NCBI GenBank assembly: GCA_017302255.1 | Contig: JAFLDV010000026.1 | Span: forward strand, 1-62,669 | DNA: 62,669 nt | Reading direction: 5' to 3' | Source of the DNA: Gammaproteobacteria bacterium | GTDB lineage: Bacteria > Pseudomonadota > Gammaproteobacteria > Enterobacterales > Alteromonadaceae | Part shown: positions 3,694-16,523 of the stretch, in pieces | Position numbering within the stretch: the stretch's first letter is position 1 | Layout of the letters: every line of letters starts with the position of its first letter | Made by a program: the position numbers and the translations under genes | Notes under the pieces: model-generated | Databases searched by the model: none | What the model saw: only the letters and a program-made list of their open reading frames with translations | Told to the model about the DNA's origin: nothing

Positions 3694-4231
3694 CATGGAC
3701 CTCCAGTTGCGTTTTTAACTTGTCTAGAGCGGCATAGAATCGAGATTTCACCGTGTTGCTAGACACTGCTAGCTGCACCGCAATCTCGTCAAAAGTAAAT
3801 TGTTGGTAGAAACGTAATTCCACCACCAGCCGCTGTTCCGGGGGCAATTTCGTTAAATGCTGTTTAACGAGCCGCTCTGTTTGTGCTTGTGATAACTGTT
3901 GTTCATGACTTTGTGTATCAAGATCAACAGCTTCAGGAATATCGTCAATATCGGTTACCGGTTTTCGTTTGCGCAGCATATCCATGGCTCGATAGTTAGC
4001 AATGCCAAACAACCAAGTTTTAAAACTACTATCGCCACGAAATTGCGCTAAATTACGACACAAAACCATCAAGACATCCTGCAATAGATCGCGGGCATCG
4101 TCCGGATCACCCATTAGGCGCAAACTGTAGTAATAGAGGACCGATTGATAACGGCTTACGAGCTGCTGCCATGCGCGCTCATCGCCGTCCAAGGCCTTAC
4201 TGATTAACGATTCATCACTGCGTTTAAACAC
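3668..4231 (-). CDS. ECF (group 4) RNA polymerase sigma factor
   Basis: A small sigma-70 family factor with region 2 (RYQSVLYYYSLRLMGDPDDARDLLQDVLM segment, ending in the usual F-R-G-D-S-S-F-K-T-W-L-F-x-I-A-x-N-x-x-x-D core-binding stretch) and region 4 (LPPEQRLVVELRFYQQFTFDEIA plus a helix-turn-helix SSNTVKSRFYAAL). Region 3 is absent, as in ECF factors. The 3' end overlaps the anti-sigma gene, which implies translational coupling. The frame is open back to a TTG at 4282, which has no ribosome site; GTG at 4231 has GGAG about eleven bases upstream and starts right where family members usually begin, so it is preferred. Target promoters are unknown. Confidence 0.85.
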   Translation of the reverse strand: MFKRSDESLISKALDGDERAWQQLVSRYQSVLYYYSLRLMGDPDDARDLLQDVLMVLCRNLAQFRGDSSFKTWLFGIANYRAMDMLRKRKPVTDIDDIPEAVDLDTQSHEQQLSQAQTERLVKQHLTKLPPEQRLVVELRFYQQFTFDEIAVQLAVSSNTVKSRFYAALDKLKTQLEVHDVRQSANF

Positions 4232-14194: not shown

Positions 14195-15412
14195 TTAACC
14201 GGCTTCTTTCATCAGGCCATGAGCCCAATCAATGCATAACAAGTACTCATTGCTCAAATCCATTTCTTTACCAAAGATTTGTTGGGTGAGCTCTTTTTGC
14301 AGTTCCCAATCGCCAAATTCATAGGCTTTAGCCAAACGTAAATAAATCCCAAGATGACCTTCACCTTCAAGTAAGGCTGTTTTGATCTCTGGTAAAATTG
14401 GCAAGTCATCTAACAAGTTAATCAACGGCTGTTCGAGTAAGGCGTCAACCAGCGAAAATAGCCCGGTTAAAAACGCGGCAGGTGGATTGTCCGGATCGCC
14501 TTTGATTGCCGCTAGGCGGTCACAAAAACGTCCACGCACAATCGACATGTTGAGTAATTCGTTTGGACCGTCCTCGCTTAAATTGGCGAGAGCTAACAAA
14601 GCGATGAATTTCTTCAGTTCAGCTTCGCCCATGTAAATCATCGCGTGTTTCAGCGAGCCAATGGCTTTTTCTCGGGCAAAACTGGCGCTGTTTACAAAGC
14701 GCAGTAATTTATACGAAAGGCCTAAATCGCGCTCAACGATGGCTGATAGCTGGTCGAAATCCAAATGGATTTTGCTCGATTCCGCAATCAACATCAGTAA
14801 ATTCAGTTTATTGCTGGCGATTTTTTTGTGTTTGAGCATTTCCGGCCGTGCAAAGAAATAGCCTTGAAATAAATGAAATCCGAGTTGTTTCAATTTTTCG
14901 AATTCGTCAGCAGTTTCGACCTTCTCCGCAAGTAACGTCACTTCATGATGACGGACTCTGGAGACGTATTTGCTAATTTGGAGAATATTGAACTGACGAA
15001 CATCGACTTTGATTACCGAGACGTAGGGTAAGAAAATATCCCATTTCGGGTCGAAATCGTGATCATCCAATGCCAGTTTGTAGCCCATCCGATGCAGTTC
15101 GCGGCAAGCGGCTAACAATTCAGTCGAAATTGGCACTGTTTCTAAGATCTCAATCACCATGCTGTTGGGATCTATGGATGTCGGAAAATGGTGGATTAGG
15201 GTATCAGCCGAGAAATTGATGAAGGCTTTCATGCCGCCAGTGATTTTCTCGACACCCATTAACAGATGGTGCTCAGTAATCAGTTTGGACGTCGCTTCAT
15301 CTGCATTGATGTTTGGAAAACAATTTGCGACCCCGTCGCGAAATAACAACTCGTATCCATACAGTTTTTTGTCCGGGTCCAAAATAGGCTGACGGGCCAA
15401 ATAACAGTACAT
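14195..15412 (-). CDS. EAL-HDOD signalling protein (YuxH/CdgJ type)
   Basis: A 405-residue protein with an N-terminal EAL-like domain (about residues 1-195) and a C-terminal HDOD domain (about 200-400). The family opening is clear: YLARQPILDPDKKLYGYELLFRDG. The EAL domain is altered, with YELLFRD in place of EALLRW, L-D-D-H-D-F instead of DDFGTG, and L-A-E-K-V-E-T near residue 160, so phosphodiesterase activity is doubtful; members of this class often act as regulators of motility. It lies between ftsX and rpoH, which are neighbours in Escherichia, and is transcribed away from rpoH. Confidence 0.88.
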   Translation of the reverse strand: MYCYLARQPILDPDKKLYGYELLFRDGVANCFPNINADEATSKLITEHHLLMGVEKITGGMKAFINFSADTLIHHFPTSIDPNSMVIEILETVPISTELLAACRELHRMGYKLALDDHDFDPKWDIFLPYVSVIKVDVRQFNILQISKYVSRVRHHEVTLLAEKVETADEFEKLKQLGFHLFQGYFFARPEMLKHKKIASNKLNLLMLIAESSKIHLDFDQLSAIVERDLGLSYKLLRFVNSASFAREKAIGSLKHAMIYMGEAELKKFIALLALANLSEDGPNELLNMSIVRGRFCDRLAAIKGDPDNPPAAFLTGLFSLVDALLEQPLINLLDDLPILPEIKTALLEGEGHLGIYLRLAKAYEFGDWELQKELTQQIFGKEMDLSNEYLLCIDWAHGLMKEAG

Positions 15413-15590
15413 ACTGACTCCTGTTGTACAACTGGTCGAAATGCCAGCAGACGAAAAAAGGAAAAACGTCTCTCAAAAGATGTAATTACCGTGAGAGTCT
15501 ATCTATTGAGCATAACGGATATTTCGCCATTGTCTTATGAAGATATATTCTCAAATTCTCATTTTAAGACTATTCAGTTCTTAAAACAGC

Positions 15591-15618
15591 GGAACTTCGA
15601 TTAGCACTCTCTGTCAAA
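15591..15618 (+). promoter_or_regulatory. Sigma-E-like promoter of rpoH
   Basis: GGAACTT at 15591-15597 and TCAAA at 15614-15618 are separated by 16 bases, matching the GAACTT-N16-TCnnA layout of RpoE promoters. Transcription would start near 15625, about 38 bases before the rpoH ATG. In Escherichia one rpoH promoter is also read by sigma-E. The predicted -10 lies inside the CIRCE operator. Confidence 0.6.
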
Positions 15619-15627
15619 GAGTGCTAA
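15601..15627. promoter_or_regulatory. CIRCE operator (predicted HrcA binding site) upstream of rpoH
   Basis: TTAGCACTC at 15601-15609 and GAGTGCTAA at 15619-15627 form a perfect 9-N9-9 inverted repeat, identical in both arms and spacing to the CIRCE consensus. CIRCE is bound by the heat-shock repressor HrcA. It covers the spacer, -10 and predicted start of the sigma-E-like rpoH promoter, a position well suited to repression. hrcA itself is not in the window, so the link is inferred from the site. Confidence 0.85.
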
Positions 15628-15662
15628 TATGAGGCTACTTTCATCCTTTACAGGAGTTATGT

Positions 15663-16523
15663 ATGACAAATCCAACGCAGTTAATGACGTTATCAGTGGC
15701 AGGCAGTGGCAGTTTAGAAGCCTATACTCATGCTGTGAGCACCATCCCGATGTTAAGCGCGGATGAAGAACGAGCATTAGCCGAACGGTTACAGCAAAAT
15801 GGCGATTTAGAGGCTGCGCGTCAGCTAATCATGTCGCACTTGCGGTTTGTCGTGCATATTGCACGGAGCTATTCAGGTTACGGATTGCCAATCAGTGATT
15901 TAGTTCAAGAAGGCAACATCGGTCTGATGAAAGCAGTAAAACGCTTTGACCCAGCCGTTGGTGTGCGCTTAGTGTCTTTTGCTGTGCACTGGATCAAAGC
16001 GGAAATCCACGAATTTGTTTTGAAAAACTGGCGCATCGTTAAAGTTGCGACAACCAAAGCACAGCGTAAATTATTCTTTAACTTAAGAAAGTCGAAGAAG
16101 AACTTGGGCTGGTTCAGCCAAGAAGAAGTGAAAAATGTTGCTGAGTCGCTGGGTGTTCCTGAATATGAAGTTCGGGAAATGGAAGCGAGAATGAGCAATC
16201 ACGATATGCCATTTGATGCCCCGGACGATGAAGAAGAAAACAACTTCACCGCGCCAGTGTATTTCTTACAAGATAAATCATCAGATTTGGCGAATAATTT
16301 TGAAGAAGATCAGTCTGAAGGTGCGGCCGTTGAGCGCTTACAAGCTGCAGTACGGACCTTAGACGAACGTAGCCAAGATATTATTCGCGCACGCTGGTTA
16401 GATAACCAAAAACTGACTTTGCAAGAACTTGCTGATCGTTATCAAGTTTCAGCCGAACGCGTTCGTCAGTTAGAAAAAAATGCGATGAAGAAGCTGCACG
16501 CAGCTATGGTTGATGCTGCTTAA
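15663..16523 (+). CDS. rpoH: RNA polymerase heat-shock sigma factor sigma-32
   Basis: Directs RNA polymerase to chaperone and protease genes during heat stress. The 286-residue protein has region 2 ([39 protein letters not shown]), the RpoH box [13 protein letters not shown] around residue 133 that marks sigma-32, and region 4 with the helix-turn-helix [28 protein letters not shown] is six bases before the ATG. Transcription appears controlled by a sigma-E-like promoter and a CIRCE site. A terminator follows the gene. Confidence 0.97.

Follow-up and report, generated by a model that had tools for sequence, protein, structure and literature searches.

The repressor-based and sigma-32-based strategies of the bacterial heat-shock response usually act side by side. 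In B. subtilis, heat relieves repression, and GroE helps HrcA. In the sigma-32 model of E. coli, rpoH is treated as a gene controlled mainly after its transcription. It has several promoters, one of which, P3, is sigma-E dependent.

The HrcA/CIRCE regulon of the Bacillus type, also present in many proteobacteria, comprises groESL and hrcA-grpE-dnaK-dnaJ, and the locus described here resembles it in both operator sequence and repressor family. For delta-proteobacteria, groESL has been called the only constant member of the HrcA regulon, in a source that also states the CIRCE consensus (PMC545781). The same source predicted in 2004 a perfect CIRCE shortly before rpoH, at -51, in Geobacter sulfurreducens (PMC545781, Table 8), the arrangement to which our locus bears a likeness. 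In Geobacter, however, groESL and hrcA-grpE-dnaK-dnaJ also carry CIRCEs, making rpoH one of three targets, and the accessible part of that paper does not mention the overlap with sigma-E or extended -10 elements that we note here (PMC545781). HrcA of Campylobacter jejuni is described as a heat sensor stimulated by GroE; there HrcA and HspR act on chaperone genes, whereas here HrcA is predicted to act on the gene of the heat-shock sigma factor (PMC8533110). In Salmonella, rpoH appears among the sigma-E-bound genes (PMC4577112), and the enteric promoter is thus like ours in having rpoH as a sigma-E target. In contrast with the enteric situation, the sigma-E promoter at our locus lies under a predicted HrcA operator, and E. 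coli has no HrcA.

A CIRCE operator upstream of rpoH

The window, i.e., the whole 62,669-nucleotide stretch of DNA analyzed, contains rpoH and the following features around its start.

14195-15412, minus strand: EAL-HDOD domain gene, divergent, at the far edge of the rpoH regulatory region
15591-15597, plus strand: sigma-E-type -35 GGAACTT (intact in 7/22 loci of the genus; GGAAC in 10/22)
15601-15627, plus strand: perfect CIRCE, the predicted HrcA operator (18/18 arm positions; same arms in 22/22 same-genus genomes), with left arm 15601-15609, spacer 15610-15618 and right arm 15619-15627
15614-15618, plus strand: sigma-E-type -10 TCAAA within the CIRCE spacer (TCNAA in 14/22 loci of the genus)
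15622-15630, plus strand: putative extended -10 TGCTAATAT, hexamer at 15625-15630, with TGCTAA in common with the CIRCE right arm
15652-15656, plus strand: likely ribosome-binding site AGGAG, assigned by eye
15663-16523, plus strand: rpoH, encoding sigma-32 (286 aa)

The product of rpoH was identified as RpoH by the NCBIfam equivalog TIGR02392 (408.8 bits versus a cut-off of 323.1), and it is 82 to 84% identical to RpoH of Rheinheimera pleomorphica and Alishewanella agri. The EAL-HDOD gene marks the boundary of the rpoH regulatory region and is not known to be controlled by it. As had been noted, a perfect CIRCE precedes rpoH: the sequence TTAGCACTC-TCTGTCAAA-GAGTGCTAA agrees with the consensus TTAGCACTC-N9-GAGTGCTAA at all 18 arm positions. 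It lies in the promoter region, with a gap to the rpoH ATG (15663) that we count as 35 bases. It is the only CIRCE match in the window at up to three mismatches, for which dinucleotide shuffles gave a mean of 0.02. In the genome that carries the window (4.03 Mb in 77 contigs, 99.89% complete), it is the sole match at up to two mismatches; two matches with three mismatches were found, both within open frames, and a backward control pattern gave one.

The chaperone genes of this genome were searched for other CIRCEs, as the original prediction had proposed. Upstream of groES, dnaK, grpE and hrcA, the best matches agreed with the consensus at 12, 9, 10 and 11 of 18 positions, against shuffled 95% levels of 12, 12, 11 and 11. 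None exceeded its level and those of groES and hrcA equaled theirs, so that neither the CIRCE at groESL nor the autoregulation of hrcA by its own CIRCE that characterize the classical regulon was found. The locus thus differs from that regulon, as the sole CIRCE detected is at rpoH, and groESL, dnaK, grpE and hrcA have none. Sigma-32-like promoters without a CIRCE are present at the chaperone genes, which were read for such promoters in this genome only: CTTGGTT-N14-CCCCATAT at groES, CTTGAAT-N14-CCCCATTA at dnaK and CTTGAAT-N13-CCCCATAA in the 3′ end of hrcA (L004) ahead of grpE, each above the shuffled level. None above that level was seen at hrcA. Given the element inside hrcA, grpE might be induced independently of hrcA. 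At rpoH itself the best sigma-32 promoter score was 9/14, below the shuffled 95% level of 11, and therefore no autoregulation of rpoH by sigma-32 was seen. For sigma-E (including the form GGAACTT-N16-TCNAA), sigma-32 and extended -10 promoters, we used the general consensus sequences.

The genome also encodes the putative cognate repressor, whose presence had been named as a check of the prediction. There is one hrcA, which adjoins grpE and is divergent from nadK. Its product matches the HrcA equivalog TIGR00331 (222 bits versus a cut-off of 197.2), passes the wHTH model PF03444 narrowly (22.1 versus 21) and the C-terminal model PF01628 with 116.4 bits (cut-off, 22.2), and matches the structure of Thermotoga maritima HrcA (1STZ) with an E value of 1.1e-20. 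In the controls of this search, 7/14 genomes were positive and Escherichia coli was negative, consistent with the initial statement that Escherichia lacks HrcA.

Promoter elements across the operator

For a wider comparison, public genomes were scanned for a CIRCE core before an RpoH motif; neither the flanking sequence nor the three outermost bases of either arm entered into the selection. At least 118 stretches were found. Most bear the names of beta- and gamma-proteobacteria, two are Desulfuromonadales and a few have other names; they include at least seven members of the window's family by name (five Pseudoalteromonas, one Rheinheimera and one Alishewanella). Two contigs, labeled Verrucomicrobia (L036) and Chitinophaga pinensis (L053), carry the proteobacterial CIRCE-rpoH arrangement and are possibly mis-binned. 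The logo and the promoter counts were made on 116 of the 118 named loci, two at contig ends having been dropped, and where two CIRCE copies were present the logo used the one nearest rpoH. From the family outside the genus, 47 of 50 rpoH loci were counted (L199, L203 and L227 were left out).

The overlap of CIRCE with a sigma-E-type promoter was borne out: GGAACTT-N16-TCAAA at 15591-15618 fits the pattern GGAACTT, 15-17 bases, TCNAA without mismatch, and its -10 lies in the CIRCE spacer. Taken alone this match is weak, as the expected count of GGAACTT-N16-TCNAA at up to one mismatch is 1.1 per window and the observed count is two, and it gains weight only from the comparison with relatives. 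Sigma-E scores of at least 9/11 were obtained for 16/22 loci of the genus versus 0/22 after shuffling of flanks and spacers. Among the matches listed, the same score was reached by 82/116 named rpoH loci (3/116 when shuffled) and by 0/25 groES and 0/6 hrcA CIRCEs. The named loci among the matches listed have GGAACTT at -16 to -10 from CIRCE and a 16-base spacer to TCNAA. In the window's genus, the pair has equal spacing and sits 6 bases nearer to CIRCE. This shift of the pair as one unit argues for a real promoter.

The proposal that sigma-E activates rpoH stood in part. An rpoE gene is present in the genome (321.6 bits versus a cut-off of 236.15) and the promoter is seen across the class, but many loci of the genus have a decayed -35 element. 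Because GGAACTT is intact at 7 and GGAAC at 10 of the 22 loci, and 19/47 other rpoH loci of the family score at least 9, sigma-E input to rpoH appears not to be universal.

Three further observations concern this region and its sigma factors. A CTTAAAA run shortly before the sigma-E -35, at 15580-15586 of the window, is conserved in the 22 loci of the genus and is perhaps an UP element. The window also encodes, at 3704-4222 on the minus strand, a second ECF-type sigma factor, which scores 82 bits with the RpoE model and so stays under its cut-off. In genus g43, which is very probably Pseudoalteromonas, judging from loci up to 90.6% identical to named Pseudoalteromonas loci over 4 kb, a sigma-70-like promoter (TTGCAT or TTGATT followed by an AT-rich, -10-like stretch) was seen by eye in L205, L206, L215 and others. 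It appears to occupy the place of the sigma-E element close upstream of CIRCE, perhaps because the promoter has turned over while the operator was kept.

The earlier reading of the promoter had missed a second element on the CIRCE right arm. The right-arm bases and the TAT directly 3′ of CIRCE together form TGCTAATAT, a candidate extended -10 of the sigma-70 type. In the window it reads TGC-TAATAT, and the hexamer TAATAT agrees with the sigma-70 hexamer (TATAAT) at 4/6 positions. The pattern TGCTA[AG]N[AC]T occurs in 22/22 rpoH loci of the genus and 41/47 others of the family, as well as, among the matches listed, in 104/116 named and 9/9 further class rpoH loci; it occurs in 0/25 groES and 0/6 hrcA CIRCEs among the matches listed. 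By these counts the putative extended -10 is more conserved than the sigma-E element. Of the promoter elements that overlap the operator in sequence, TGCTAANAT was seen at none of the 31 groES and hrcA CIRCEs among the matches listed. In the classical arrangement at groES, the -10 (TATNAT) ends on the first CIRCE base (23/25 among the matches listed), whereas here promoter elements run across the operator.

Base changes within the arms are consistent with such a double use. Among the matches listed, 31/116 rpoH loci have G in place of A at the third left-arm base, and the right-arm partner of this base is changed in 4/116, a pattern to be expected of a right arm that also serves as a promoter -10. 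All six outer arm bases are present in 73/116 loci among the matches listed. As a -35 for the extended -10, TTAGCA in the left arm (18-base spacer, 4/6 to TTGACA) was considered and not pressed.

Distribution of the operator and its repressor

We compared 60 genomes, namely, that of the window and 59 relatives, of which 22 belong to the window's genus. Each of these 22 has exactly one CIRCE at up to two mismatches, at rpoH and 34 to 37 nt from its start. The inverted repeat is therefore kept in close relatives, another point on which the original prediction could have failed. HrcA was found in 16/16 of the same-genus genomes searched for it. Among the 38 genomes outside the genus, three have CIRCE matches. 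In G023, the single match has two mismatches and lies within an open frame; G041 has two CIRCEs at rpoH and one further, and G048 has one at groES and one further, both genomes representing other families of the same order.

In the family, 295 genomes were scored for CIRCE at up to one mismatch (67 positive) and for HrcA above the cut-off (65 positive). Both were present in 65 and neither in 228; no genome had HrcA without CIRCE, and two had CIRCE without HrcA (Fisher p 1e-63, with the reservation that the genomes are related and are not independent events). In 66 of the 67 CIRCE-bearing genomes the operator lies directly upstream of rpoH and nowhere else at up to one mismatch, and none was found at groESL, dnaK or hrcA in the 295 genomes at that limit. 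One of these genomes is Rheinheimera pleomorphica, with an rpoH locus identical to the named record over 3,027 bases (G206). Of the two genomes in which no hrcA was detected, G153 (95% complete) has its CIRCE at rpoH. The other, G165, has a perfect match away from rpoH, at 1501-1527 of L197, whose self-complementary spacer makes it a full hairpin shortly beyond the end of an open frame; it is probably a terminator, and it serves as a warning against CIRCE scans by pattern alone. In genus g74, HrcA and CIRCE are both present in four genomes and both absent from four. Tandem CIRCEs, with starts 31 to 34 bp apart and the second copy counted at up to two mismatches, precede rpoH at L198, L199 and L200 (g74), L203 (G080) and L227 (G093). 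As uniqueness was tested to one mismatch in the family outside the genus, two in the genus and three in the window's genome, weaker sites beyond these limits are possible.

CIRCE at rpoH had been regarded as an unusual placement, a view that we abandon: it is present in at least 100 of 369 genomes of the class, and the Geobacter prediction cited above dates from 2004. The figure is a lower bound, because 9 of 40 further class CIRCE flanks that we fetched were rpoH sites missed by the pattern (the others being 25 groES and 6 hrcA sites, among the matches listed). Of the 369 genomes, 269 have a CIRCE at up to one mismatch and 268 have HrcA; among the 100 with CIRCE at rpoH, two or three CIRCEs were counted in 82, a single one in 14 and none in 4 at that limit. 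Since the placement is common, what appears to distinguish the window's family is the absence of any other CIRCE found, suggesting that other HrcA targets were lost in it.

The repressor itself has diverged unevenly. HrcA of the window's genus (6 loci) and that of g43 (6 loci) share, with eight other-family loci, identities of 0.48 and 0.43, respectively, in the wHTH (residues 1-75) and of 0.23 and 0.18 in the core (residues 111-340). Among the eight loci themselves, the values are 0.68 and 0.53. In a tree of 30 HrcA sequences, in which 11/27 inner branches are open, the Rheinheimera-like clade and g43 have long stems (1.69 and 4). We read this pattern as a DNA-reading head that was kept and a sensing and dimerization part that is drifting. 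With a core so strongly diverged, the input signal may have changed: sensing may be relaxed or altered, and a new signal is possible. In L280-L285 of g43, the C-terminal domain of HrcA scores only about 31 to 50 bits, yet the CIRCE at rpoH is perfect; for L280, the one g43 protein scanned, the wHTH model fell below the reporting limit.

Such a divergent HrcA could tolerate other sequences, and hence might have direct targets with degenerate CIRCEs that we did not see, in an ordinary regulon of which rpoH is merely the best site. Our search of the window's genome covered three mismatches at most, and the groES and hrcA matches do reach the shuffled 95% level. Nothing upstream of groES, dnaK, grpE or hrcA exceeds it, however, and the wHTH is conserved. 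Moreover, the site that was kept has the exact consensus in 22/22 loci of the genus and 44/47 others of the family. We keep this explanation, which is compatible with repression of rpoH, as a minor and unlikely one.

Slightly less likely still, the CIRCE could be a leftover, to which HrcA still binds with little effect because most rpoH transcription comes from promoters located further upstream. The several rpoH promoters of E. coli would fit this idea, as would the sigma-E -35, which many loci of the genus no longer have intact. A useless site would drift, though, and the arms are 100% identical in 22/22 loci of the genus while most flanking bases vary; in addition, hrcA and CIRCE are present or absent together.

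The repeat could also act as RNA, as a 5′ hairpin or thermosensor affecting the stability or translation of rpoH mRNA; on its own it folds at -12.4 kcal/mol (z, -4.91). What is fixed in the genus is nevertheless the arm sequence itself and not pairing alone, its occurrence tracks hrcA, and the unequal variation of the paired third-base positions described above speaks against selection for pairing. Furthermore, the predicted transcription starts lie inside or shortly after the right arm, which would give transcripts without the left arm. On account of the fixed arm sequence and the coupling to hrcA, we rejected this as the main function and consider it very improbable. Finally, although the G165 hairpin indicates that accidents occur, a chance repeat or a terminator is next to impossible at rpoH and both were rejected, as the spacer is non-complementary, the site precedes the gene, and conservation refutes them (recurrence at rpoH in 66/295 genomes of the family, hrcA being present in 65 of the 66).

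A predicted circuit from HrcA to sigma-32

We thus favor, with a probability of roughly 0.82, the reading that an HrcA operator lies over the rpoH promoters and that HrcA represses rpoH, is released by heat or by a shortage of GroE, and leaves the expression of chaperones to sigma-32. At normal temperature, HrcA bound to 15601-15627 would lie over both the sigma-E -10 and the extended -10, and would block the two promoters together. Upon heat, or when GroE is taken up by unfolded protein, HrcA would become inactive and rpoH would be transcribed, with envelope stress providing additional input through sigma-E. Sigma-32 would then drive the transcription of groESL, dnaK and grpE, and newly made GroE would restore HrcA and close the loop. 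Binding, repression, the GroE feedback and the two transcription starts are deduced from the arrangement of the sites, and the relief of repression by heat, along with the help that GroE gives HrcA, is carried over by analogy from C. jejuni (PMC8533110) and B. subtilis. As rpoH seems to be the sole direct target of HrcA in the family, HrcA would act on the chaperones through sigma-32, in a presumptive series circuit leading from HrcA to rpoH, sigma-32, GroESL and back to HrcA.

The features that appear distinctive are the regulon of HrcA in the family, seemingly limited to rpoH, and the promoter elements with bases in common with the operator. We found no description of either in the literature searched, where the Geobacter study was the one paper seen to place a CIRCE before rpoH (PMC545781). 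Permina and Gelfand (2003) and Ueki and Lovley (2007) may already describe rpoH CIRCEs of beta- or gamma-proteobacteria, and we therefore state the novelty with caution.

On balance, we lean toward the view that HrcA now serves Rheinheimera, Pseudoalteromonas and the genera allied with them as a repressor devoted to the heat-shock sigma factor, such that the two strategies act in series and not side by side, with a core that may sense a new signal. A GroE-sensitive repressor would set the transcription of rpoH, sigma-E would add envelope stress in part of the genus, and the signals would converge within about 40 bp, where some bases belong to operator and promoter alike. If the rpoH CIRCEs found across the class are functional, chaperone-sensing repression of rpoH would be common, and E. 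coli would be among the lineages without it. The window's family offers a clean natural case, a repressor whose target is apparently single, for measuring the benefit of placing HrcA above sigma-32, and sister species without hrcA, such as those in genus g74, would provide natural controls.
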